From contig OX485803.1 of assembly GCA_950295325.1 (NCBI GenBank), forward strand, positions 48,873,554 to 48,937,553: a stretch of DNA of 64,000 nt, given 5' to 3'. The stretch comes from Polytrichum commune. Its lineage: Eukaryota; Streptophyta; Polytrichopsida; Polytrichales; Polytrichaceae. Made by a program: the position numbers and the translations under genes. Below are positions 4,101 through 54,600 of this stretch, piece by piece; the stretch's first letter is position 1, and each line of letters begins with the position of its first letter. The notes under the pieces were generated by a model. The model ran no database searches and was not told the DNA's origin. It was given only the letters and a program-made list of their open reading frames with translations.

Positions 4101-6828
4101 AGCAACCAATGAACCGATATAGAATGTTTTTTGTACAAACCCCCACACTACCTCCAAGCATGCACTGAAAACTTACCAAACATGGAAGGTGTTGTATGCT
4201 AAAAAATCAGCTCCCGACCAAAAGTCATGATGAGTTGCAGGACAGTGTTAATGTTTTCAATGCAACACCGGAGGTGGTTGAAGAGTGGTTCAGAATACTC
4301 CTCGTGCCCCTTTAGGAGGATTAATTGCACTCAAAAAGTGTCCACAAATGACTTCAGAAGAATTCTTCACGCAAACTAGAATGGACAGAGGCCCTAAGCC
4401 TTGCAAAGGGTGGCTCAAACCCAAGGCCTTAACCTGGATCCCATGGGAACTCCGAAGTTAAGCCACCTAAAGGCTGCAATAGTACTCAGATGGGTAGCCT
4501 TTCTAGCACCTGATTTCTGGGATACCCTACCATCTATGCTGCACCCAATCACAGTGGGGATATCTGGGTGACCTGGACGTTTCAATCAACCATGTGGGAA
4601 CCTAATGGCTTGCCCTTGGGGGAGATAGGTGCTGGCCAGCTTGTTTGTGCCTTTTCAAGGTGTTCACCTTTGAAAGGAAGCAGTAGTTTTGGGGCCCCTC
4701 TAATTCTTGTTCTGCCCGTTTTGGGGTAACATGTAGGCCAAGTCAAAGATGAAGCACCATCATAATTCATGCTGGCGTCAACATGGGAGTCATATTGTTT
4801 TCTTGCTCTAAATCTTTGACATACAGGAGGTATTTGATGTGCACGGAGGATAAAACTAATGATATTGCTACTGGTAATGATGCAGTCAAGTGAAGACCTG
4901 TATCATCAAAAACCAGCTGAGCCTGAGCCCACACCTGTGGCTCCTGCACCTGCCGCTGCCACTCCTGCGGGAGGAGTGGTGCAGTCCGCTCCAAGAACTT
5001 CGAGGTTTATCTACACAGACGAAGTATCGCCAACCAGTGTCTCCAACAGCGATAATAATAGCCACTCAACCAATGGCCACGTGACAGCTCCTGCTACTGT
5101 TGCTGACTTTTTTGCTGAGTTTGGTGCATCCCCAATCAGACCATCATTTAGCAATGGGCGTTCAAAGGCACAGGTACTATAACTGTGAGATTCTTAAGAT
5201 GTCAATCTTAGGGTGGGTTTACACTCAAGCTCGAGTTGAGGGTTTGTACTTGCAATTTTTGGGACTTTGATTCTTAAAGTTGACAAGTTTTCATCCAAAG
5301 CTCAAACTATTGAGACCTTGACCAATCTTTGAGCTCCCAATAGTTCGAGCAAGTGTAAAGTGGCCATTCTCAAAGTGAGATATCAAGGGGGGAATGCTAT
5401 ATAACAAAGAAGCATTCATGACAAGCCAAAGACTGCCTGAATGCCCATTGGCTTTGGGTCCACAAAACAAGAGCTTGAGCTCTCGACAATCCCTAATCTA
5501 CCTCATGGAGGTAGCTTAGGATTTTGACTGAGAGCTTGTCAAATATGACTGATAGTAATCATTCCACATGAAATCCATCAAGGCTCCATCTAAAACTTCA
5601 AGCTCTCAAGTTGGGAGCTTCTGCGTAAAGTGGTTTTGAGTGAACAAGCATGTGTAAGGGGCACCCCGTCAATGAGAAGGCTCTTTTTTTTGAGCTCTTA
5701 ACTTGAGCTCTAGCATAAAGGAGGCCTTACCTTGTCTCAGTCTTTCTGCAAAGAAGAGATGTTCCATCATGTTCAGGAAGTTTGCATTGGATGCAATGAT
5801 ATACTGTAAATTAGACATTGGTCAGTGTTTCAATAGCATTTTCCACTGGAAGAGGTGGTGATTTCAACATAGGTTATCATGGATAATTGGTTTAGAGTGT
5901 CCTTATCCAACACTAATTGTAAAGCTTGTGAACCTTGCGGTCCTTTCATGGTTCACGTTGGAACTTGTACAATCTGTTCAACCTTACAAATTACATTTTA
6001 TTTTCTTTGTATGAGAGTGACCTACAAGTGAAACTAACGAATTGTGATTCTTTTCTGTAAAGAGAAGTGCCAGATTTATTTCAGAATTGATGGAACTAAT
6101 ATGTTTCTCGCTTTTCTTATCTTTGTTAGTTATGGACAAATAACATCACACATGTGATGTACAAGTGTGTTTCTGAAATGTCCTTCCTTTCATGCAGCCT
6201 GAGGAGAGCCATGAAGCACAGAAGAAATTCTCCAATGCAAAATCAATCTCTTCTGCACAATATTTTGGCAACTCGAATAAGGATGGGGACTCAGAAAACT
6301 CTGGGCGTCTGCAGAAATTTGCTGTAAGTTACTTGTGTGACTCGTGTGCCTATCTGATGATGGTTGTGAAATCTCCAGGTGGAAGTATCTAATTTGACAA
6401 TGCCGAGCAGTCCGCTCTAAGGGTGCAGCTGGAGTTTATGATGCTGGGAAATGAAGTAGTTCTTACCCATGCTAACCTGGTGTTTGTCAATGTGCAGAAT
6501 TCATCAGCAATCTCAAGTGCTGACTATTTTGACCGTGATGAAGAAAGCATATTTGGTAGTTCCATGGACATAACTGCAAGTGAGATCATGTCGAAGTTGT
6601 CAATGCAGGTAACGGACTCTTCACATTATGGTTAAGTGATTACAATTTTTGGTTCTGTAGCCTTCTCTAAGGATTTCTTATAGTCCAATACCAGGTTAGT
6701 TGAGGGAACTGAGAATGTCAGCTTAAGTCTTGGGAGTTTTATGTTGAATTGACAGATATTTCATCTTAGGACTGACATTATTGACCTGGGGTGTTGTGCA
6801 GATTGCTGACTTCAGCTTTTTGAAATGA
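1190..6828 (+). CDS. ArfGAP of the AGD8/9/10 (ArfGAP2/3) type, seven exons
   Basis: GTPase-activating protein for Arf small GTPases, which by family acts in COPI/Golgi traffic. Proposed exons are 1190-1258, 2515-2633, 3502-3952, 4886-5173, 6198-6323, 6498-6608 and 6802-6828, giving 396 aa; all junctions are GT-AG with matching phases. The ArfGAP zinc finger is formed by Cys25, Cys28, Cys45 and Cys48 (CX2CX16CX2C), followed by [12 protein letters not shown] with the arginine finger at Arg53. An Ala-Pro-rich linker lies near residues 163-176. Two [17 protein letters not shown] motifs and the segment [10 protein letters not shown] are typical of this subfamily. The start is supported by the conserved N terminus. 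The 3' end is uncertain: exon 7 adds only IADFSFLK and stop, whereas related proteins run on for about 25 residues. Intron 3 holds a 5S-headed SINE. Confidence 0.88.
2930..3280 (+). repeat. Copy of dispersed repeat family R1 (ArfGAP intron 2)
   Basis: About 350 bp that resembles 45,345-45,690 almost end to end. Shared landmarks are a GGTTAGGTG(T/A)GGATCT stretch, GTGTTT(G/C)AA(A/G)GAGATTGGA, the sequence around 'tggatttgct' and an ending with GTGTC followed by TTTAGGC-CACTTA. More diverged relatives lie near 7,140-7,370, 17,120-17,270, 31,700-32,000, 32,230-32,500, 35,230-35,520, 37,480-37,720, 40,450-40,780 and 55,020-55,340. No coding capacity is seen, so this is a non-autonomous element of unknown class. 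Confidence 0.6.
4408..4794 (+). mobile_element. 5S rRNA-headed SINE-like element, copy 1 (ArfGAP intron 3)
   Basis: The first 120 bp (about 4408-4530) resemble plant 5S rRNA from its 5' end. They contain GGATCCCATGGGAACTCCGA followed by AGTTAAGCC, then a degenerate box C-like GTACTCAGATGGGT. The 5S internal promoter boxes A and C are therefore partly kept. A body of about 260 bp follows, shared with the other copies. It contains TGGGAACCTA-TGGCTTGCC, AAGGTGTTCACCTTTGAAAG and a 3' end in GGGAGTCAT. It lies in sense orientation within the intron. There is no obvious LTR pair, primer-binding site or poly(A) tail. Confidence 0.75.
5210..5735. mobile_element. Possible MITE-like insertion in ArfGAP intron 4
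   Basis: AGCTC/GAGCTC-rich sequence whose two ends are imperfect inverted copies: GGGTTTACACTCAAGCTCGA at 5' against a reverse complement reading TTTATGCTAGAGCTCAAGTT at 3'. Related half-copies occur inside (near 5340-5370 and 5595-5665), suggesting nesting. No clean target duplication was found. Confidence 0.3.
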
Positions 6829-18084: not shown

Positions 18085-20111
18085 ATGACGATAGTGAGCT
18101 TGTTTCGGAGGTATAAGCGATGGAACCCCGTGCACCCCACCTACGGAGCGTTCTGGGGAGTGGGGGTGGGGATGGGGTGCGGTGTGGGTTGGGGTCCAGG
18201 GTTTGGTCCCGAATCGGTGGGATTCGTGGGCTCCGGATGCGGAGTGGGCATCAACATGGGAGTCACGCTGGTGGGCATTGGAATTGGACTGCCTGCAAGC
18301 GGCCTCACTTGTGTGCCATGCAATGGTCAGCCATCTCTCTCCTTGTTTCATTTTTAAGTAGGCTCATGCTGTCCATTCCGTCGTATTCCTGATGTCAACT
18401 TCCCCCAGCTACTACCCAGTTTGTGGTTCTAGTATTGAGCATCATGTGTTTTTTGTATGGGTCTGCTGGTTAGTGATGCAAGTAGGCCCTTTTCTTTGAA
18501 GAGTGTCAAGGGGCAGAGTAATCAACACCACGGTTGTTCACTATATAACTCACAAAAATAAGTCTAGGGTTTAGGGTTGAGCCTTGTGAGTGTGGAAGTT
18601 TCGGAGGTGAGATGAGGAGCAGTGCAAAATTATGCCATGATAGGGTTATGGGAATCATGCAGTGGGCATTGGAATTGGACCTGCCTGTAAGCGGCCTCAC
18701 TTGTGTGCCATGCAATGGTGAGTCGTGTCTCTCTTGTTTTAGGCTCACGCCGGCCATCCGAACAATTCATGTCAACTTTCCCACAGGTAGAATCTAATTT
18801 GAGGTCTTAGTATTGTGGGTTTAGCATCAAATGTCACATGTTTGCATAGGTTTGCTGGGTAGTGGTGCGGGTAGACCTCTTTGCTGTGAAGAGTGTGAAG
18901 GGGCAGAGGAATCAACTAAGGTTGTTCCTATCATGACTCAGAAATTAGGTGTAGGTACGAGCATATTAAATGTAGAAGTTTCGGAGGTGAGATGAGGAGC
19001 AGTGCAAAATAATGCCATGATAGGGTCATGAAATGGGGCTTAGGAATTGGACTTTCTGGAACCGGCCTCTCTTGTGTGGTGTGCGATGGTGAGCCATGTC
19101 TTTGCTTTTTTGAATTCATATTGACCGTTCCGTGTAATTCTTGAGTCAGTGGGTCATGCCAATTTCCCACAGGTAGCATTCAATCTATGGTTTGGCATTG
19201 AACATCATGTGTTTGTGTAGGTCTGCTGGGTAGTGGTGCAGGTAGACCCTTTTTGTTGAAGAGTGTGAAGGGTTAGAGTAATCAACGCCAAGGATGTGCC
19301 CACTTCGACTCAGAAAATTAGGTTCAGGTTTGAGCCGATTAATGTGGAAATTTTGGAGTTCAGATGAGGAGCAATGCAACTAATGCCATGATAAGGTCAT
19401 GGGAGTCATGCTGGTGCACTTCCACTTTGGTGCACCCAATCATAGGGGGGTATCCTGGTGAACTGAATATTTTTATCCATCCATGTGGGAACCTAGGGGC
19501 TTGCCTTTGGGGGTATAGGTGCGGATGGTGTGTCTGCGGCCGTTCAAGGTGTTCACCTTTGAAAGTAGGCAACAATCTTTGGGGCCTCTCTAATTCTCGT
19601 GATGCTTGTTTTGGTACAACATGTAGAGTTACACGAACTCGTAGGCGAAGCAGCACAATAAATCACGCTGGTGACAACATCGGAGTCATCCCTCTCTTTT
19701 GATTCTACACCTCATTATACTAGCACGGTTTGTGTTGTGAGCATTTGTTGTATTCTTAGCAAACTTTGGGTTTTCTCCTCTGCAGTGGTTACTGGAGCTG
19801 GACAGCGGGTCCATGAGATGGGCACATGGATGGCTCCAATTATGTTTAGTCTTGCAATGCAAACTTGGAAATCAATGAACACCAGCCTTCTACGACTTGA
19901 TCAGCAGCTGCAAAGGGGCCGGGAGAGAATTGTCAACAGATCATTTACCAGGCAGCAGAGTACAGTACCAAATGTCAAAAGCTTGCAGCCGACAAGAGGA
20001 GACATTGATACATTTAACAACCGCTCGCAGCTGAAAGTCACCACTTCTCAAAATGCACATCAGGTGTCTCTTCAAGATGCAGGTCACAATGACTTCATTG
20101 AGGGAAAGTAA
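18085..20111 (+). CDS. Cadmium-induced protein AS8-type small protein, two exons
   Basis: Exons 18,085-18,325 and 19,786-20,111 join in phase to a 188-residue protein. The N terminus carries LFRRYKRWNPVHPTYGAFWG, then a run of GxG motifs through GCGVGWGPGFGP and a second glycine-rich, membrane-like stretch (about residues 20-75). This conserved block is typical of the plant AS8 family (Arabidopsis At4g19070), whose biochemical function is unknown to me. The C-terminal exon is polar, with RVHEMGTWMAPIMF then Gln/Arg/Asn-rich sequence. ATG 18,085 was chosen because the in-frame codon at 18,079 is GTG. The donor is weak (ATG then GTCAGC). The 3' end of exon 1 and the intron downstream are tandemly repeated, and the intron also holds a SINE fragment. 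The family call rests on memory of the motif. Confidence 0.72.
18260..19412 (+). repeat. Tandem duplication of the exon 1 end plus intron (AS8-type gene)
   Basis: About three units with a period of 370-390 bp. Each unit begins with a copy of the last coding part of exon 1, anchored on GGAATTGGAC at 18,281, 18,671 and 19,042. It continues through the donor region (CAATGGTCAGC, CAATGGTGAGTC, CGATGGTGAGCC) and a shared intron segment with TCTGCTGG-TAGTG and GATGAGGAGCA(G/A)TGCAA. The downstream exon copies are shorter and diverged. Their donors read GTGAG, closer to consensus than the GTCAGC of the first copy, so alternative splicing is conceivable. Confidence 0.85.
19413..19701 (+). mobile_element. 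5S-headed SINE family, copy 2, 5S head lost (AS8 intron)
   Basis: Body-only copy in sense orientation. It begins near GGTGCACCCAATCATAGG and contains GGGAACCTAGGGGCTTGCC, TTCAAGGTGTTCACCTTTGA and TAATTCTCGTGATGC. It ends in ACATCGGAGTCATCCCTCTC. The 5S-related first 120 bp are absent; the body follows directly the truncated fourth unit of the host tandem repeat. Confidence 0.7.
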
Positions 20112-34428: not shown

Positions 34429-37400
34429 TTAGTCTCTACGCTTTTGCGAGAGCACGTTGTGGTGGTAGATTGAGGAAAGATAGCGTGCGAGGTTGGAGAT
34501 GGATGGCGTGTAGAAAAAGTAGCATGCTAGCACCCATGTAACCGTACTCTGCATCACAAAACCAGTCCAATCAGAATTGCTACTAATATGTACAGTATGC
34601 TGCAATGATCCACAACAGTCAAAGACGAAGAAAATAGATAACTCCGATGTTGTCACCAGTGTGATTTATGGTGTTGCTTCATCTTTGAGTTGGTCTGAGT
34701 TTATATGTAATCGCGAAACAAGCATCACAAGAACTAGAGGGCCCTCGAAGACTACAACCTTCTTTCAAAGGTGAACACCTTGAACATGTGTAGACAAGCC
34801 GGCATCTCCCTTGAGGGCAAGCCCCTACGTTCCCACATGGTTGGTGGAAAACATCTAGTTAGCCTGAATAATCACCAACTATGATTGGGTGGACCATAGG
34901 TGGTAGGGGTGCACCGGAAATCAACATGAACTTGGAGTTTCCGTGGGATCCAAGTTAAGGCCTTAGGTTTTAAGCCACCCTTGCAATAGCCAAGTATGAA
35001 ATCTCCCCGCAATTGAATGCGGAATAGCAATTGCAAGATGCAAGTGTGTGCAGTGCTACAAAGATTGGTAAGATGACTTGAGGAGCTATCATACCTCACC
35101 AAAGAGCTCGATGTTCCCATTAGGGTAGTGCCAGAGCCCAAAAAACCTGCGTCATATAACTGTTCAGGTTACAAACCAACTTTGTAGCTATATATTCAAG
35201 TTTCTCAAAGTGTGCGTGCATGTGTGGGTAAGGTGTGTGGGCCTTATGTGGTCACTCTCCTTGATTAGACACCTATATTCGAGTGGTATATGGCAAGGCT
35301 TGTAGTTAAGAATGGACACCAACAAGAGATGATTATGTGTTCCAATGAGGTTGGACTATGTGTTCAGAATATAGACACCATTCTTGGATGAGTTGTTCAC
35401 ACAGTTATGTAATTCCTTCAAAGAGAAAGAGGGTCTTCTCTTTGACCTCCTGAACTTTTGCATCTCAAGATTCTACTTCAATTGGTGACTGGGTCAGATT
35501 AAGAGTTTTCTCACCCGGTCAGCAATTGCGACTCACACATATTGTCAGTTCATGTTTTAGAATTGGAGTTTCACAAGATGCAAACATTGAAGTGAACAAC
35601 AATCTCTTTCTCTCTACGCGATCACATAGGCCCTTGTAATTGTGATGTTCACTATTGCACGTAGCATGGTGTCTGTGTTTTGAGCAGCTAGTCATATCTT
35701 ACTGTAACACAAATCTTTTCTAGTGTCCATCCTCAACTAGAAGCCTTGCCACATCCTGATAAATATAGGTGTCCAATCAACTAGAGTGACCACATAAGGC
35801 CCACATCCCTTAATACAAAGGAACTGAGAGAATGGCGACTTCTTGTCTAATCCTGAGGATGCACACAACGAGTAAGGGTTGCAAGACATACTTGTTGATG
35901 GGTATTTCAGCAAGTGGGCATGCAATTCCCACAAGCGAGGCAAGGCCGAAGCCCCACCACGTGTTGTCAAACACAAGCCAGTTGAGTTCCGCAAGAGCAA
36001 AGAGAATGTATGCCTCACTGTTGAATGGAACACCTGCTTTGTACATCTCCGCACTCACCTCCAACAGCACTGCCAATGTTCTGCAATGCACAAGAGATTG
36101 TGAAGGTCACATTAGTGCGTTTATAGAAGACATGGCCATTCTGAAGTGGTGGAGTGGGTGGTCCGCTTAGATAAGCATCTTGGAGAGTATACACTCGGTG
36201 ACATTCATTTCGGCAAGGTCTTTAAGGGGAGAGAGAGATGACTCCCATGTGGTTGCTGTCGGCGTGAAGGAACATCATAATTCATCTTCAAGGTAGGCTA
36301 AGTCTATATGTAATCCTGAAACGGGCGTCATTAAAATTAGAGGCCCCCCGAGACTACTGCCTCGTTTCCAAGGTGCACACCTTCAACAGGTGCAGACAAG
36401 CTGGCATGCACCTATCTCCCCAAAGGCAAGCCCTAGGTTCCCTTGAACCCATTCAGTTCATCCACATACCCTCGTCCTAAATATATTGTGCACACGGGAA
36501 GCACAGAAGGGACATATCTTTGACAGCTGCATCCCCTCCATACTATGATTGGGTGGACCATAAGTGGGTAGGTGCACCGGATATTAAGTGCTAGGAAGGT
36601 CACCCATCCGAGTACTATTCCGGCCTTGGTATGCTATCCAGGTTGAGGAGGCCCCTGGGTTTAAGCCACCGTAGGGTCTGTTAAGTTGAATCTTAGGAGA
36701 TGGCAGAAGGCTTTGTCCAAAGATAGGTAACCATGAGGCTTGCCACATGACTACGCTTGGCATTCATGCAAGTAATGAACTTGATTTAATGGAAATTTAT
36801 TCTTGAAGCTAGAATAAGAAAGAGGACGTCCTTACACATGCTTAAGAAATGCTATGGAAGAGGCTCCCAATGAGCAATTCATTGTTGAGAATTGAAAAAA
36901 CATTTTGCATATACTTCTGGTCGATGTCACCAACGTCGACATGCATTGATATAGTAGCTATACTATACCATGAAGAAGAAGGGCGCTTCATCATCTCCAT
37001 CGTGTTTACGTGACAGACAACAAATGCATGTTCTAAGACATTCAATGCAGGTTCACACAAGTTGTTTAGAGAAGAGCAGGATCATTGGGGGTAGAAGAGT
37101 GGGAGTATCTTAGTTTTAGTATTTGTACAATGAGGTGAAGATCAAACAAGAGAATTACAGTGTTGCTTGCGGTCGACTCTCCTTGCACCAGGTTCGACAA
37201 CTGATGGTTCTTCTATTTGGCGAATTTCTGCAGAATTTTCTCAGCTGATGACCTGAAATGGTGGAATGAGTGAATTTTACTTTGGTGTATGTGATATTGT
37301 TTCAGGAATGAGGTCACTCACATGAATGAATAGACCACTTTCTGCAGGTTTGCTTTCGGTAGGGCGCCTTTTCGAGCCAGGTTCTTGTCAAGAACAAGCT

Positions 37401-43689: not shown

Positions 43690-45883
43690 ATGGACGACAC
43701 CTTAGTATATGAAGAAGATGGACTTCCCACAAAGGGAGATGGAAGTGCAAGTCCGCAACGAAGGAACAGAATTTTTGATGATAAAATGCGGAATCAGTGT
43801 TGGCAAAAGGCTGATGTGGTGCCAGGAAGACATCCAGAGCGATGGAGAAAAGATGTAGCAGGGAATGTGGTGTGTCGAAGACTCACTAGATGTGAAGGAT
43901 GCCTTTGCTATGAGTACGATCACATTCGTCCCTTTTCTAAAGGTTTTTCTTCTGTCCTTTTTGCAATTTACCAAAGTGGGTTATGGTTTAGGGGCTAGGG
44001 TTTAGGGTTTACCAAATTCGTTCTTGATGTACCACTTGTAGGACATTAGAAGAGGAGGTGACGAGAAGAGATGACTCTGCTGTTGCCAGCGGCATGAATT
44101 AAGGTGTCGTTTCATCTTTAAGTTAGTCTAATTGTATATGTATTCCTGAAACGGGCATCACAAGAATCAGAGGGACCTTGAAGATTACACCTCCTTTCAA
44201 AGGTGAACACCTTGAACAGGCACGGACAAGCTAGCCTGCACCTATCTCCCTGAATGGCAATGGCAAGCCCCTAGCTACCAACCTGGGTTGAAGATATGAA
44301 ATTCACCTATACATCCCCTCTAGGATTGGGTGGACCATAGCCATGTTGCCATTGGCGTGAATCTTGGTGAATCATGGTGCTGCTCTGTCTTCGAGTTAGT
44401 CCAGTTCCATATGTAATCTTGAAACATGAGAATTAGATGGACTTGAAGATTACTGCCTCCTTTCCAGAGGTGATGACCTTGAACGGGTCAAGGGCGAGGA
44501 TAAGCAGACCCGCACTATCTCCCCAAAGGCAAGCCCCTAGGTTCCCACATGGTTGGTAGAAGGCATTTGTTTTACCCAGATACCCCACTATGATATGGGT
44601 GGACCATAGCTGTAGGATGCACCAGAAATTGAGTGCTAGGAAGGTCACCCATCTGAGCACCATTCAGGCCTTATGCGGGCTTAACCTCGGAGTTCCCACG
44701 GGATGCAGGTTAAGGCCTTGGGTTTAAGCCACCTGTGAGAACTTTAATTTCTATTCTACTGCTTCAGCATGTTGCTACATAGGGACCTCAATTGGTGAGC
44801 CTGCTCCAAGATTCATGATGCTATCTTTCAGAATGAAATTACTCCCTTATTGACCTCACACTTTGCTATCTCTTTACTATCTCATAACTATCACATGCGG
44901 AAGGTGATCATCGGGCACTGCTCCCTTATTCTCTTTTGTCAAAACACTTCTCGACTTTAGAGTGTCTTTTTCCATGAAATCTGGTTGTCTCTAATTTGTT
45001 GTGGATGGTCATTTCATATCACCTCGTTGAAGTTTCTCCTCTGGTGCAGTTGGGATGTTGTATCTGATACACATGTGCCGTGGACATGTGCAGGTGGAGA
45101 AACACAGGTTAACAATTGCCAAATTCTACAGTCTCGTGTCAACCGGTTCAAGAGTAATCGAAGCGATTTAGCTGGAAATGACTTGAAACAATTCTCCTGT
45201 GACCTAAAATTTAGCGGTGAGTCTCCTTTTCAGGATGTGAATATGTACTGCAACCTCTTTTGTATTAGTCTGGGTCATGCCTACTGTCTAATGTGCTTGA
45301 AGCCAAGTCAAGTGACCCATTTCAGCAAACAAGGGACCATGCTCCACCTATATTTAATTGGTGTGTGGTTAGGTGTGGATCTAAGAACGGACACAGAAAA
45401 GGCATCATGTGTTTCAAAGAGATTGGACTACATGCTCAAGATTTGTTAATTATTGTTCAATAGTCAACATAATTGAGGGGACCTATATGATCAATCAAGA
45501 AGACAGACAATTTTCACTTCGGTTAATGAAGAAGATATGCATTTGAGCTTTGAAGATCATGAGGAAAATGGCTATGTCCTCGAATTGGATTTGCTGATCA
45601 TCTCATACTAATAGTGTGTTCAATATCTTAGGAGAAGTGGGTATGGAGTTAAAAGTGTCCAATTTAGGCCCACTTACCTTAGTAATCTTTCCTTCATACA
45701 CTTATGTCTTCTGTGGTGATTGCAGACAAGGAGCTAGATGTAATAGAGATGGCTGTCTATGGGAATGTTGTTCGTCCAGGCCTTCAATGCAAATGCAAGA
45801 GTGTCGCAGAGTCGTTAGGAACCGCACTGTACAAGCAGAAAGGACCCGAAGTTTCCTCATGTGAGCTCCCTTACAAATCTTGA
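43690..45883 (+). CDS. HNH nuclease-domain protein (At3g47490 type), three exons
   Basis: Exons 43,690-43,942, 45,094-45,216 and 45,726-45,883 join in phase to 177 aa; all are GT-AG, the first donor being weak (AAAG/GTTTTT). The HNH fold is indicated by CEGCLCYEYDHIRPFSKGG with Asp77-His78, then NNCQILQSRVNRFKSN with Asn92 and Asn101. Cys62, Cys68, Cys71 and Cys73 may bind a structural metal ion. A conserved C-terminal block KELDVIEMAVYGNVVRPG with paired CKCK follows, ending near SCELPYKS. This layout is typical of the small plant HNH family. HNH proteins cleave nucleic acid with a single metal, but the substrate and compartment of this family are not known to me. No clear transit peptide is visible. 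Intron 1 carries a tandem pair of 5S-family SINEs and intron 2 a copy of repeat R1. Confidence 0.88.
44063..44341 (-). mobile_element. 5S-headed SINE family, copy 5, no 5S head (HNH intron 1)
   Basis: Body-only copy on the minus strand, from CTATGGTCCACCCAATCC at its right end to GCAGAGTCATCTCTTCTC at its left. It abuts copy 6 directly at 44,341/44,342, so in 5S sense it follows a complete copy head to tail. The body is otherwise full, with the AAGGTGTTCACCTTTGAAAG landmark. Confidence 0.75.
44342..44734 (-). mobile_element. 5S-headed SINE family, copy 6, complete (HNH intron 1)
   Basis: The minus-strand 5S-like head spans about 44,734-44,617. GGTGGCTTAAACCCAAGG is followed by CCTGCATCCCGTGGGAACTC and CGAGGTTAAGCC, and the box C equivalent reads GGTGCTCAGATGGGTGACC. 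CTTCCTAGCACTCAATTTCTG ends the head. The body follows, with CCCACATGGTTGG... on the plus strand and an AAGGTCATCACCTCTGGAAAG variant of the landmark. Confidence 0.85.
45345..45690 (+). repeat. Repeat family R1 copy (HNH intron 2)
   Basis: Closest relative of 2930-3280. It holds CACCTATATTTAATTGGTGT, GTGGTTAGGTGTGGATCT and AAAGAGATTGGACTACATGC, and ends with AAGTGTCCAATTTAGGCCCA. It lies shortly upstream of the exon 3 acceptor at 45,725. Confidence 0.65.
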
Positions 45884-48670: not shown

Positions 48671-51600
48671 ATGGCCTCTGCTGAGCGAGAACTTTGTAAA
48701 GTCTCCATCGTTGCTCATGTTTCACTTTTTCTTCTCTCCCTCGGTGTACACCTGACTTTTGCAACTTCGGAGGCGACTACCTCTCCTTTCTCGGATCTGA
48801 ACGATGTGCAACTGAGCATCGATACTGGTAAGTTACTCGCCATCCGCATATGTTTTTGTTTATTTTTGTTTATTTTTGTTCTGTTGCCATCGAAGTAAGA
48901 ACTCATATCCGATCTTTTTGAGCTGGGCTAGATTGCAACAATGTCCGTGATATTGGTGTGGCAGCAGTTGTGCTTGCTTCTTCACATACATTCGGCAGCT
49001 TGAACCATTGGGAACCATTGGCGTAGTGTTGACGAAGCATTCCAAGGACATTGTGAAGGATTGAAGGATGTTGGCCATGGTCCTGGAAGTAGGGATTGAT
49101 GCAATCTTTGCAGCTGTACTAAATTGCAACAATATCCGGCAGATTGGTCTGGTAGCGGTGTGCTTGCTTCTTCACATTCACACTGTGCAGCTTGAACCAT
49201 TGGAAACCATTGGCGTAGTGTTGATGAAGCTTTCCAAAGACGTTGTGCAGGAATTTTGAAGGATGTTGGACATGGTCGTGGAAGAATGCTTTTGCAGAGC
49301 ATGGTTCCCATTTCCAATGGCTCCCTCGTGCTGGCAGCGGACAGGACGTATAGGCGCGATCCACTTAACGGCTTCCGCCATTACCGCGGAGGGTGGGACA
49401 TCAAAAACCGAAGCTACTGGTCGGTAAGTACTAAGGCTTCCTGCACACACTCAAGCTTTGACTGTTAAACTCATCCATCCGGTTTGTCTGTTCCAAGTTT
49501 TCTGCTGCAGTCTGGTCGATGGCATTCGCTGCACTGGCCATAGCTCCAGAATGCCCCATTTTGAAATACCTTGTGACAGATGTTAGATAGCTTTTGATAC
49601 TCCCCGTCTTCACCTATGTTGAGCTTCGAAGGCTCTATTTCGCCGGCCTGCGATGTCGTCCACGGTGGTTCTACATTTTATGGCACGATGACACTGCCAC
49701 GCCTATTGGGAGGAATATACTAATTCATGACAAATGGTTTGCGTGTCACATCCTCTGGTTTTTCTATTCGACTTTTCTGCTGCAGTCTGGTCGATGGCAT
49801 TCGTTGCACTGGCCATAGCTCGAAGTATGTCCTATTTTATAAGACCTTCTGATAGATGCCAGACGGTTTCCAAAACTCACCGTCGTCACTTTTGTCGAGC
49901 TTTGAAGGCTTTGATACGCCGGCCTGCGATATCGTCCAGAGTGATTATACGTGTTATAGCACGGGTGAAACTGCCAGGTCCATTGGGAGGAAGATACATA
50001 TTTTGCGTGTTACATCCTCTGGTGTCTCTGTATTTGAGTTTTCTGCTGCAGTCTGGTCGAGACGTTCGGTGCACTGGCCATAGCTGGCAGAATCTCAACC
50101 TTGTAACAAAAATAGCAGGCAGCCTCCGATGTTCGCCGTCGTCACTTATATCTAGCTTTCAAGACTGTGATTCGGAGGTCTGCGACATCTTCCAGAGTGG
50201 TTGTACAGATTATGGCACGATGACACTTGGGAGCTTGAAAGATACTCGAGAATGTTGGTAAGTCGAGATTGGCATTGCCAACTCATGTAACTTCACACGA
50301 TCGGATGTATCCCTCGCTGGCATTGATGCATCTGAAAGAGGAGTGTGATTCTAATTGTCTGTTCACAGAAGTATCAAGAATCTGAGATCTCTCAGACCAT
50401 CGTGAACTGAGTGGATAATACTGGCCTTCGGCACATATTTGGTGAAGGCTTCGTCACCCGCTATAAATTAGAGTTAATGCAGTTGTTGTATAATCTTCTC
50501 CAGTGGCTCTCTACCTCTACGTCCCTCCTTTTCAAAACCAGATGTTATTCTACAGGAGAGAAGCCATACCTCCCAGCAGCAGGAGGAGGCCGGTGCTCGT
50601 TTTAATCAAAGTGTTACAAGAACCCTTTTAAAATGCGCATTCTTGCTTAAATTTCTGGAACGACGAGCAGTGATCTGCAGGTGTATAAAGATGTATGTAT
50701 TTATGTATGTATGTATCTATCTCTTCTCTGAGGCGTTGATGATTACTCTTGGCTGTGCAGTCGGTGGGATTCACAGGGCTGCCGGGATTCCTCATTGCTT
50801 TGCTGTGGGTGGCACTGGGTCTTGTGTTCCTGGTATTATTCTTCGGGCGCAAGTTCGGCTGCCGACATCTCATGCTCAAGGAACATGACCATGGTTCAGC
50901 GGGCTATTACATTCCCCTCTTCCTGCTCATTCTTTTCTCCGCCGCTGCCATGTAAGCTAACAAAGTAGTGAAACAGCTTCTCCTTCTCCTTCTCCTTCTA
51001 TGATCGCCTGCTTGGATATGTGGAAACATGCTTCCCCTATTTAGGTTTGCAATCTTTGCGGCCAATTCTTCTCCTGACACGGAATTAATGGAGCTTTATC
51101 TTCAATCGTGACAACATCCTTCAGTATTAGAAGAAGAATTGACTCCAATGTTGCTACCGGTGGGAATTATGGTGTTGCTTCATCTTCGAGTTGGTCTAAG
51201 CCTAAATTTAATCCTGGAATGGACACCATGAGAATTAGAGTACCCAAAAGACTACTGCCTCTTTTCAAAGGTGAACACCTTGAACGCATCCTGACAAGCC
51301 GATCCGCACCTATCTCCCACAAGGGCAAGCTCTTAGGTTCTCACATCGTTGGCTGAAATTATCTGGTAGTAGGGTGTGTTGAAATCAACTGCTAGGAGGT
51401 CACCTATCCAAACACTATTCCGGTCTTTATCTTCAATTGTGACACCATCCTTGAGTATTAGATGAAGAGACGACCTGAAGTTGCCACTCGTGGGAATTTT
51501 GGTGTTGCTTCATCTTTGAGTTGGTGTAAGCCTATATGTAAGCTTGGAATGGACATCACGAAAATCACCCGAAGACTACTCCCTCCTTTCAAAGGTGAGC

Positions 51601-54600
51601 ACCTTGAACGGGCGCAGACAAGCCGACCTGCACCTTTCACCCCCAAGGACAAGCCTTTAGTGGACCTGCACCTATGGTGGGTATTTGGATACCCCCTATA
51701 ATTGGGTGGACCATAGGTGGTAGGGTAAACCAGAACTCAAATGCTAGGAAGGTCCTCCATCTGAACACTATATCTGCCTTATGTGCGAAACCTCTGAGTT
51801 CCCATGGGATTGGGTTAAGGCCTTGGGGTTTTAGCCACCTTTCCTTGAGCTCTCTCTCTATAGTCTCCCAGCGCAAATGGAATAATTCTCAAGGTACCCG
51901 GATAACCTGAGATTTATTCCATTTGGGTGCACCCCTCATTGCAATTGAATCTTGGTAAAAATAGGCAACAATAGGTGTCTTAGTGACTAGTGAGAGGTTA
52001 TTGCACTATGCTCAGCAATGATTTGTGGATGGAAACAAGGACCAAGGGAAGTCCAGGCCTTACAGGGCTTGGTAAGGATGTTACATATGTCGACCGACAT
52101 GAGGCCATTCATTCATTGATGCGTGTCGCTGCTTCATTAATTGCAGAGGTGGATGCTACCTCCTGTACTGGGGACAAGCGAAGTTCCACAATGAGCTTGA
52201 GTCCACCTTCAACTACGTGGTCAATCAGTCATACACGACGGTGCAGGGGCTGCACAATGTCTCCAGTTACCTGTCGCAGGCCAGCACCATCAACGTGGAG
52301 AGCTATGGACTCCCTGCACTGGAGATTCAGCAGATTCAGAACTTAAATGTGCAGATCAATCAATCCGCTGTGAAGTTGCAGAGCAGGACGGAATCAAATT
52401 CGGTGCAGATTCAAGAAACAATAAACCACATGTAATGTCTCCTCTCTTCTCATATTCATATGGTTCAGTAGACGTGTCTTCAGTGGACACTTTTCTGAGA
52501 TGGAAGGCCTACTTGTGGAAGATCTTCATCAACACTCAGATTTTTGAGGTACTTGCAAATATGTGGAGGAGATGGCAGAAATCCAATGCCAATTCGGAGT
52601 TGTGGAAATTTTCTATGAATTTCTAAACTCAAGATTCTTCTGCTCATAATTAATTAGTCACGTGCCCCTACCCCCAAATGGAACACAATTGTGTTGCTTA
52701 AAGTGCACTCCCTACCACTCCCATGTTGAGCCACACCAAAACCAAAACTGTTTTCTTGGCGCTCATTCACATGAGAAACTTGTGTGATTAGTGGGTGCAT
52801 GCACTTTCAAATTGTGTTACGTGCCAACATGAATTAGTTGCATGGTAGACTATATAACCGGAGGTGTTGTATTAAGATGTGCGTCGCTCTAAAGAGCCGA
52901 TTGTTTGTTTTGAGAATATCTACTGAGATATAGACAAGAAATGGTCTTGGAACCATTTTTGGCACTGTGAGTAGGAGTGCATTAGGGTTTCTTATTGCTG
53001 GCATTAACTCACTGATATTCCACCTGCAGCCGTACTGCCCTGATAACCATTTCAACAGTGATGCTGCTACTCATGCTTGTTGGCCTGGGTATGCTTTTCT
53101 CTCCTTTTCCTGCTGCCATTCTTAGGTCTGAATCAACAGCATAATACAGCTCTTGAATGTTGTTTTGCCTGTACATCCTAGAATGGGACACTCTATTTCA
53201 AATGACTGGAACTTGCGCAACAATAAGTACTTTCTAGCAATTGTTTTCCCATACGTAGTTATTGAAAAGCTTGATTTGGACAAAGATACCCTTGGGCATG
53301 TTATATTAAAACACATTTTAGAAAACGCTTTACCCCTTGTGCGTTGAAGGGATATGCTGCTGCATTTAAGAGATAATCCAATATCGCAACATTATTCTCA
53401 TATGCTCATTCTGTGTCACTGCCCTTTACTGTTACCCATGATCCGAACAAATTCTGGGTTGTACTCTTCCAGTCTTTGCTGCAATAGGAAACCGTCGAGC
53501 TGTCTACACGTAAGTTCCTGGCTCCCCTAATGTGTGCAATGGCTTCACCTCCAAACAGCTGCATCACTTACAAGTTTGCTGCAACCCTCCATTTTTATTT
53601 TTTTATTTTTCTATTTTTTGAGACAAATGAAACACTTCATTTCATTGCCAAAAAACATACAAGGCCACTGGGATGTGGTTCCCTCGAAGTTTTGTCAATT
53701 TTTTGCAATGCGTTTCTTTCTATCCAGGGTTTATTATAATCTTGAAGACCTGATGATGTTCCTTATTCATGTGCGTTGGCCCAGGTTGGTGGTGATTGGC
53801 TGGTTTCTTGTGGTGGGCACTTGGATTCTCTGTGGGATCTTCATCCTGCTTCGAAAGTAAGCTCCAATTGCTCACCTAAGTACTATGTTATGATGTTTAA
53901 CTTCAAAGATTGATTATCTTCTGGATATTTTATGTTATGCCTACTCATCAATGCAATGTACTGACATAGCGGATCCCAATATGAGATAGTTTTTGTAGGA
54001 GCGGAGAAAAAAAAATTCTCCTATTGATCATTGACTCATTTAACAATGTTAATCACAGTGGTGAAGCGGCATTTATAACTTGAACTGACATGTGGGTAGT
54101 TGCCCATAGCGAGAAGAAAATAACCTTCAAGTAGCTAGGTTAATCAACTCAACACTAAAAATCTGCTTGAGAATGAAAGGCAGCGGCCAAGTAGGTTAGT
54201 CAGTCACCATGGCACTTAGATGCTTGAGGAATGGGAGGCAGTTGTGTGCACACATGTTAGAAAGAAAACTTCTTCGAGAGGAGTAACTCATTTTGGCATT
54301 GGAGATGGGTACTAGTGTTAAGGAATCAAGTTACGATACATAACTGTGTTTAAAGTGGGCAAGAATCAAGTCGCTGATATCATCATCTGAATTTTGGCAT
54401 CATCTGCTTTTTGAGAAAAACCCTACAGCTGATGTAGTACCCACCCTTTGCATTCTCAAGCATCTAAGTGTTGTTGTGACTAACCTACTTGGCGGCAGAC
54501 TTCTGTTTTATCATTTAAGTGTTGCAGTGGTTAAATCTACATGGAAGTCAATTTCAACGAATTTCAATGAAGATTAAAAAGTGTGGATGGGAGGGTTTGC

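Follow-up and report, generated by a model that had tools for sequence, protein, structure and literature searches.

The window, a 64-kb stretch of Polytrichum commune DNA, holds eight copies of a dispersed element that is almost certainly a SINE with a head derived from 5S rRNA. The proposed build is a 5S rRNA-derived head followed by an anonymous body, a LINE-like 3′ end and a tail that is (TCTTT)n or T-rich. From these parts we infer a putative route of amplification. RNA polymerase III would start at the 5S +1 position by means of the internal 5S promoter, and the transcript would bear a 3′ stem-loop and a pyrimidine tail like those of a LINE encoding an APE-type endonuclease, a reverse transcriptase (RT) and RNase H. 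The RT of this LINE would recognise the 3′ end of the SINE RNA, which would then be copied into a nicked target by target-primed reverse transcription, and this would leave target-site duplications and a tail of variable length. We regard this whole statement, with Pol III transcription and the RT of this LINE as its putative steps, as quite probable. The initial annotation of the window had proposed a plant 5S SINE, and that reading is supported by sharp ends, target-site duplications, a variable tail, the 5S head, a star-like family and the LINE-like 3′ end.

Copies of the element and its layout

A profile made from 42 aligned copies, of which three rows are window copies (those at 4.4, 36 and 44 kb), was used to search the window. 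Eight strong copies at six loci were detected (E 3e-116 to 3e-68), the same number that had been claimed at the outset, and ten 10-kb stretches drawn at random from this genome gave no match at E <= 1e-3, nor did their shuffled version. The copy on which the finding was based is real and full length (model 2-395; 36235..36671; profile E 8e-88). Its orientation needed correction: it lies on the minus strand, with the 5′ end of the 5S part at about 36671 and the body running towards 36235. The 5S-derived head of this copy, at the high-coordinate end, occupies 36552..36671 on the minus strand (bounds approximate, set by eye) and contains the box C-like AGTACTCGGATGGGTGACC; some additional letters are found within the body. 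A second full-length copy (model 1-395) is located at 4408..4796 on the plus strand and gave the strongest match (E 3e-116). Also on the plus strand, the profile search found a 5′-truncated copy at 19404..19692 (model 109-394), which enters the model at position 109 and so has at most the last few letters of the head left. The copy at 34635..34985 on the minus strand (model 102-395) has lost the centre of its head, and an extra profile match at 34980-34929 (E 2e-9), a separate piece, is part of it. A further match at 16629-16456 (E 7e-4) was too weak to be counted as a copy.

The copies at 44 and 51 kb are present as annotated, and are described more correctly as partial copies in tandem, all on the minus strand. 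The 44 kb pair (44068-44734) consists, in the 5S sense, of a nearly full-length first unit (model 2-385; 44340..44734) and a second unit that is a headless body (model 126-395; 44068..44342); in the tree, the 44068 unit is not the sister of the 44340 unit. The 51 kb pair (51135-51840) consists of a full-length first unit (model 2-394; 51467..51840) and a second unit in which the head is reduced to its 3′ part (model 61-392; 51135..51438). These two units are sisters in the tree (support 0.873). By eye, about 40 bp of outside sequence is common to both, and the pair therefore looks like a local tandem duplication. 5S letters are present in six of the eight copies, rather than in five as first counted. 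All or nearly all of the 5S part is kept in the copies at 4408, 36235, 44342 and 51467, and the partial heads of the 34635 and 51135 copies had likewise been described correctly. No direct or inverted repeats were found around two of the window copies, and the whole copy at 4.4 kb showed no special fold (z +1.16).

The genome searched comprised 408 Mb in 64 contigs, seven of which are 42-78 Mb in length. For a LEAFY exon of this genome, the best solved relative is chain 4bhk, from the moss Physcomitrium patens (115 bits, the next one reaching 103), which together with the seven large contigs suggests a moss. When the 44 kb copy was used as the query, at least 42 matches were obtained, with 40 of the 1710 first-look candidates scored, and 40 regions were fetched with about 300 bp of flank. 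One of these, L044, is not a SINE and was excluded from all SINE counts, leaving 39 loci, which together with the three window copies make up the alignment of 42 rows. Loci L008 and L038 have both flanks in common and represent a single insertion that was duplicated, yet both are within the counts of 39; L042, which is without 66 core columns, was also retained. The alignment runs from GGGTGGCT to GGAGTCATCTT, and similarity is lost abruptly beyond both ends. With ends this sharp across the 42 rows, the element was not found to be part of a larger autonomous element, the outcome against which the initial annotation had cautioned. In the 5S sense, the head covers positions 1 to about 118 and the body (about 275 nt) extends to about 393, where the tail begins. 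The element is thus non-coding and dispersed, about 393 nt long plus the tail, with fixed 5′ and 3′ ends. A GG start was present in 31 of the 42 rows. The tail is (TCTTT)n or T/C-rich: the 12 letters that follow the core were at least 75% pyrimidine at 33 of the 39 loci, a T/C-rich stretch was absent after the core at six, and the unbroken tail run varied in length from 0 to 24.

Tandem partial copies together with repeated head pieces were observed at L083 (92-732), L080, L087 and L024, which suggests repeated local duplication at SINE sites. Motifs resembling splice sites were also counted around the 39 loci. The 3′ splice-site-like YNCAGG was found downstream 33 times in sense and 17 in antisense, and upstream 16 and 13 times; the corresponding counts for TGCAG were 26 and 21 downstream, and 24 and 9 upstream. 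Donor motifs near the tail were about even between the strands. These counts are suggestive, and the pyrimidine tail of the SINE might serve as a polypyrimidine tract within introns.

When an internal 20-mer was searched in the genome with at most two mismatches, it was found at 826 places, compared with 3 for the reversed control. At this tolerance, the 20-mer is retained in 6/8 window copies and 26/39 fetched copies; dividing the 826 places by these retention rates therefore gives roughly 1,100-1,240 body copies genome-wide. Mean divergence from the majority sequence was 13.6% (42 rows). Among 48 genome copies, the median pairwise identity was 0.78 and the tree was star-like; the fetched copies included no young one. 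The family consists of old insertions, as after an old burst.

By our own arithmetic, about 0.2 copies would be expected in the window at genome density, compared with the eight observed, and SINE density between 4408 and 51840 is about 40 times the estimated genome average. With the window excluded, 92 exact places of the 20-mer formed five neighbour pairs within 50 kb, compared with a simulated mean of 1.04. Local duplication was considered as the cause of the window cluster and rejected, given that the 51 kb pair is the only window pair that groups with support; the copies at 44068 and 36235 are joined in the tree by a zero-length branch with support 0.

The head and the host 5S rRNA

The host 5S sequence was recovered from the genome (L003) and aligned with the SINE head. 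The alignment scored 86; the best of 1000 shuffles reached 26 and stretches of the body 4-10, which bears out the homology of the head that had been claimed. Individual heads were 69-85% identical to 5S, mostly within 5S positions 14-96. In the window, the 36 kb copy matched the host 5S at 94% over positions 65-96 (32 letters), the 4.4 kb copy at 79% over 14-93, and the 44 kb copy at 78% over 14-96. Moreover, when the search was reversed and a 120-bp 5S query was used, the SINE heads of L013, L018 and L041 were returned among the 40 matches listed, with the L013 head at 85% over 66 bp (E 1e-12). When the first 20 letters were compared without gaps, the head equalled the 5S stretch at 12 of 20; in the gapped alignment, the head starts five letters into 5S. 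By alignment, the element start, placed by the initial annotation at the 5S 5′ end, thus lies at or within about five letters of it.

The head retains a stretch resembling 5S box C, and its majority sequence includes GGCCGGAATAGTACT of the host 5S. This presence may point to a birth independent of animal SINE3. When the Rfam 5S model was run on 12 SINE loci, two matches were obtained, the better at 22 bits, where the cut-off is 38, and an Rfam search of the window at E<=1 returned no 5S. The 5S fold is largely lost in the SINE heads. Given that the 5S-matching promoter region is retained and the Rfam fold matches are low, the promoter region is therefore better kept than the structure of the rRNA.

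Other 5S-related sequences were encountered in the genome. Two tandem 5S-like elements are located at L044 394-503 and 576-689 (G000:C2:59433593-59433888; Rfam 46 and 51.9 bits), upstream of C2H2 zinc-finger exon sequence. Two more, also in tandem, are located at L110 (G000:C7:14288127-14288425), with a similar first-exon-like stretch by eye. We take these pairs to resemble the 5S-mimic exon of plant TFIIIA, but in doubled form. As for 5S itself, the genome has about 12 scattered copies that are complete or almost so and 95-100% identical to L003 (e.g. L001-L004). Outside the 120 bp, the four copies that were compared have little in common, apart from the pair L001 and L002, and no close tandem 5S array was present among the 40 matches listed for the 5S query. 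In mosses, 5S is described in an excerpt of PMC3095306 as linked to 35S.

The 3′ end and candidate LINE partner

To compare the SINE 3′ end with LINE ends of the same genome, as the initial annotation had proposed, the genome was searched with RVT_1. At least 150 matches were obtained (150 of 2621 candidates were scored), and 15 loci were read downstream of the RT. One LINE family (L057-L059) ends in poly(A). A second family (L060-L067) has a zf-RVT domain in L064, the sole frame tested; no SINE-like end was found in the 3.1 kb read at each of its loci, nor in a further 3.6 kb read at four. The SINE end is thus not shared by the poly(A) LINE loci or by L060-L067 as read. A third family, represented by L068-L071 (continued in L096-L099) and nine more loci, ends in a hairpin followed by a (TTTTC)n-like tail. 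The end was readable at 11 of 13 loci; L105 and L108, which have no readable end, are outside the 11. Three domains were recognised in the LINE at C5:33.41 Mb: RVT_1 at 114.5 bits, RNase H at 56.4 bits and an APE-type endonuclease at 31.5 bits. Its frame (L109, G000:C5:33406300-33411400) has GDIHPNPGP upstream of the endonuclease, a stretch that resembles a 2A-type ribosome-skipping motif. At L096, two SINE pieces in opposite orientation (882-985 and 1172-1283) lie just downstream of the LINE 3′ end.

In one copy, the candidate partner LINE ends with AATTCACGCCGGT...GGGCGTTCA-(TTTTC)n, and the SINE majority sequence ends with AATTCACGCCGGT...GGAGTCAT-(TCTTT)n. AATTCACGCCGGT, or a near-identical stretch, is present in several LINE ends and in the SINE at a similar distance from the tail. 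When SINE 40-mers were scored against the 11 LINE ends, the last 40 nt and the overlapping windows just before were the best. The mean score of 10.09 was reached by none of 2000 mononucleotide shuffles (highest 8.8, shuffled mean 5.7). A position control was also carried out at five of the 11 LINE loci, and in each of them the very end of the LINE was the best of 453-809 stretches. The LINE and the SINE thus share a 3′ end. Scores of single LINE ends ranged from 6 to 14, and three of the 11 (L099-L101) scored 6-7, near the shuffled mean. The shared stretch is short, with 13 identical letters at best, plus the hairpin and the type of tail.

The LINE hairpin was drawn by us from the same sequences that were used to test it. 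In these, 90 of 90 cells were paired (10 distinct rows) and double changes occurred in five of the nine pairs; when partners were slid, at most 57% of cells were paired. Of five measures, four exceeded nearly all shuffles, and the fifth, further pair types, was reached by 88 of 500. In the SINE, eight of the nine hairpin pairs form in 28-39 of the 42 rows; the remaining one forms in 2. The SINE hairpin comprises five outer pairs, one at a position unpaired in the LINE, and three inner pairs compared with four in the LINE. As predicted from these alignments, the SINE hairpin corresponds to that of the LINE, though not pair for pair. Together with the shared letters, it points to the APE/RT/RNase H LINE as the likely partner of the SINE.

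It could be argued that the element is a true 5S SINE moved by a different LINE, either one that recognises T-rich tails or a poly(A) L1, and that the shared letters are a coincidence or a relic. The shared block is indeed short, three of the 11 LINE ends match very poorly, the SINE has lost one of the hairpin pairs, and other LINE families are present in the genome (poly(A) L057-L059; L060-L067). However, the match falls at the 3′ ends of both elements and beats 2000 shuffles as well as the other positions tried, the type of tail repeat agrees between SINE and candidate LINE, and the other two LINE families lack the SINE end at the loci read. We therefore consider movement by a different LINE to be rather unlikely. 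The weak match of three LINE ends and the altered SINE hairpin did lead us to lower our estimate for the whole statement slightly, from a high one to the one given at the outset.

Insertion sites, other origins and known systems

Target-site repeats were scored as the best ungapped repeat shared by the 5′ flank and the sequence that follows the core, with 459 mismatched flank pairs as the control. Scores of 8 or more were obtained at 11 of the 39 loci and in 4 of the 459 controls, and scores of 7 or more at 15 loci and in 20 controls, with no repeat scoring at least 7 at 24 of the 39 loci. Target duplications, for which a search had been suggested, are thus present above control; examples are TTCTTACCCAGAA at L005 and TCATCAGGTGCAAA at L006. 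A second sample comprised 20 loci hand-picked from the 92 exact places of the internal 20-mer. In this sample, 12 copies extend to the start of the head and 18 to at least model position 393; an excess of 5′ losses is to be expected because the 20-mer sits nearer the 3′ end. Target-site scores of 8 or more were found in only one of nine full-length copies of this sample, and no convincing repeats were found around 5′-truncated copies.

Given that Cassandra is a known plant element with 5S (PMC10853983, in excerpt), solo LTRs or remnants of a Cassandra-type TRIM, with the 5S within an LTR, were also considered. No repeat family was found to surround the element when the 39 loci were examined together with about 300 bp of flank. 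Seven direct repeats of at least 40 bp were detected, in six of the 39 loci. At L010, L023 and L043, the element lies between the two units of a local direct repeat of 59-104 bp; the repeats of these loci and of L015 are local and were not found at another locus, and those in L024 and L030 involve SINE units. Apart from L008 and L038, flank matches between loci were seen for L024 and L030, with 147 bp downstream in common, and for L020 (downstream) and L029 (upstream), with 141 bp at 72%. A tRNA-Met primer motif, scanned on the sense strand, was present with at most two mismatches at one of the 39 loci. The structure of a Cassandra TRIM (5S inside two LTRs plus a tRNA-Met primer site), named beforehand as a competing outcome, was thus looked for and not found in these loci, in agreement with the earlier impression that LTR pair, TG...CA ends and primer site were lacking. 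LTR elements usually have target-site repeats of 4-6 bp, a size exceeded by the clear repeats found here. Two copies do lie about 330-350 bp apart at some loci, but the pairs that were read are partial tandem copies. Moreover, the 5S lies at the very 5′ end rather than inside, the ends are GG and a T/C-rich tail of varying length, and no LTRs are common between the loci. An LTR origin is therefore very unlikely. A tRNA-headed SINE (SINE2) was also rejected: ARAGORN, which can miss degraded tRNAs, found a tRNA at 0 of the 39 loci.

The head could in principle stem from the 5S mimics of a TFIIIA-like gene, two loci (L044, L110) having two 5S-like elements each, at least one of them beside C2H2 exons, or from a promoter-less retroposed 5S fragment, such fragments being dispersed in the genome, but the head scores higher with 5S (95) than with the mimics of L044 (75 and 70), by which an origin from the latter was rejected, and a promoter-less piece would not be expected to found about 1000 copies with a fixed 5S-start end, so that we give this origin hardly any credence.

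As a 5S-headed SINE, the element can be compared with several known systems, for which the papers are cited from excerpts. 5S-derived SINEs have been described as zebrafish SINE3, AmnSINE1, springhare Ped-1 and moth HaSE3, PxSE4 and PxSE5, and in the fungus Aspergillus fumigatus (PMC10886601, PMC3747384, PMC5063351), and SINE3 elements are considered to have been born several times (PMC10886601). These families are alike in the 5S head and SINE build, and a LINE partner is listed for several. To judge from their descriptions, the present family differs in its plant host, in a head that matches the host's own 5S, in its pyrimidine (TCTTT)n tail, and in the likely APE/RT/RNase H LINE partner from the same plant. 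The 5S-SINE build is thus known from animals and a fungus. No description of a plant or moss 5S SINE was found among the titles and abstracts listed for the literature searched, which included few subscription journals. One source lists 5S-like sequences among SINE3 elements 'including plants' (PMC3095306), but the reference given there is the Cassandra paper. On balance, we are inclined to think that no 5S-headed SINE family had been recognised in a land plant before this one, and that the family and its partner LINE make up a SINE/LINE pair of the stringent type, with a T-rich tail.

Cassandra TRIMs of ferns and flowering plants carry a captured 5S internal promoter inside their LTRs, and animal SINEs are given as an example of non-autonomous elements taking up 5S promoters (PMC10853983). 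The moss element resembles Cassandra as a plant transposable element with a captured 5S internal promoter (PMC10853983); in contrast to Cassandra, it has no LTR, its 5S is at the 5′ end and its 3′ end is LINE-like. A plant 5S SINE would show that the 5S promoter was captured in plants in a second way, beside the LTRs of Cassandra. It has been proposed that Cassandra arose by insertion of a 5S SINE into an LTR (PMC10886601), and in the excerpts of the literature searched no plant 5S SINE is named as the donor. If our reading is true, land plants do possess a donor of the sort from which Cassandra has been proposed to arise.

The plant SINEs Au and p-SINE1-3 and Chlamydomonas SINEX-2_CR have T-rich or (CTTT)n tails (PMC3747384, Table 2). 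They are alike in the T-rich 3′ tail; here, the head is 5S-derived, compared with the tRNA-derived or unknown heads listed for land-plant and green-algal SINEs with a LINE tail (PMC3747384). The LINE tail of Au and the p-SINEs is given as 'Nd', and SINEX-2_CR is paired with RandI (PMC3747384). Which LINE moves T-tailed plant SINEs has been left open (PMC3747384, section 4.1), and the same paper asks whether recognition of a specific RNA end was a property of the ancestral plant LINE. If true, the hairpin with (TTTTC)n would be a concrete LINE end of the partner sort that is missing for T-tailed plant SINEs, and a structured, T-tailed LINE end makes both of these questions testable. Pairs with shared 3′ ends are known as UnaSINE/UnaL2 in eel, ZmSINE2/LINE1-1_ZM in maize and TS/RTE in tobacco, and stem-loops are common in stringent-type SINE/LINE pairs (PMC3747384). 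The moss pair is similar to these in its shared 3′ end, and differs from them in combining that end with a 5S head and a T-rich tail, and in a LINE whose RT has R2 proteins as its best solved relatives (96 bits), compared with 52.5 bits for L1 ORF2.
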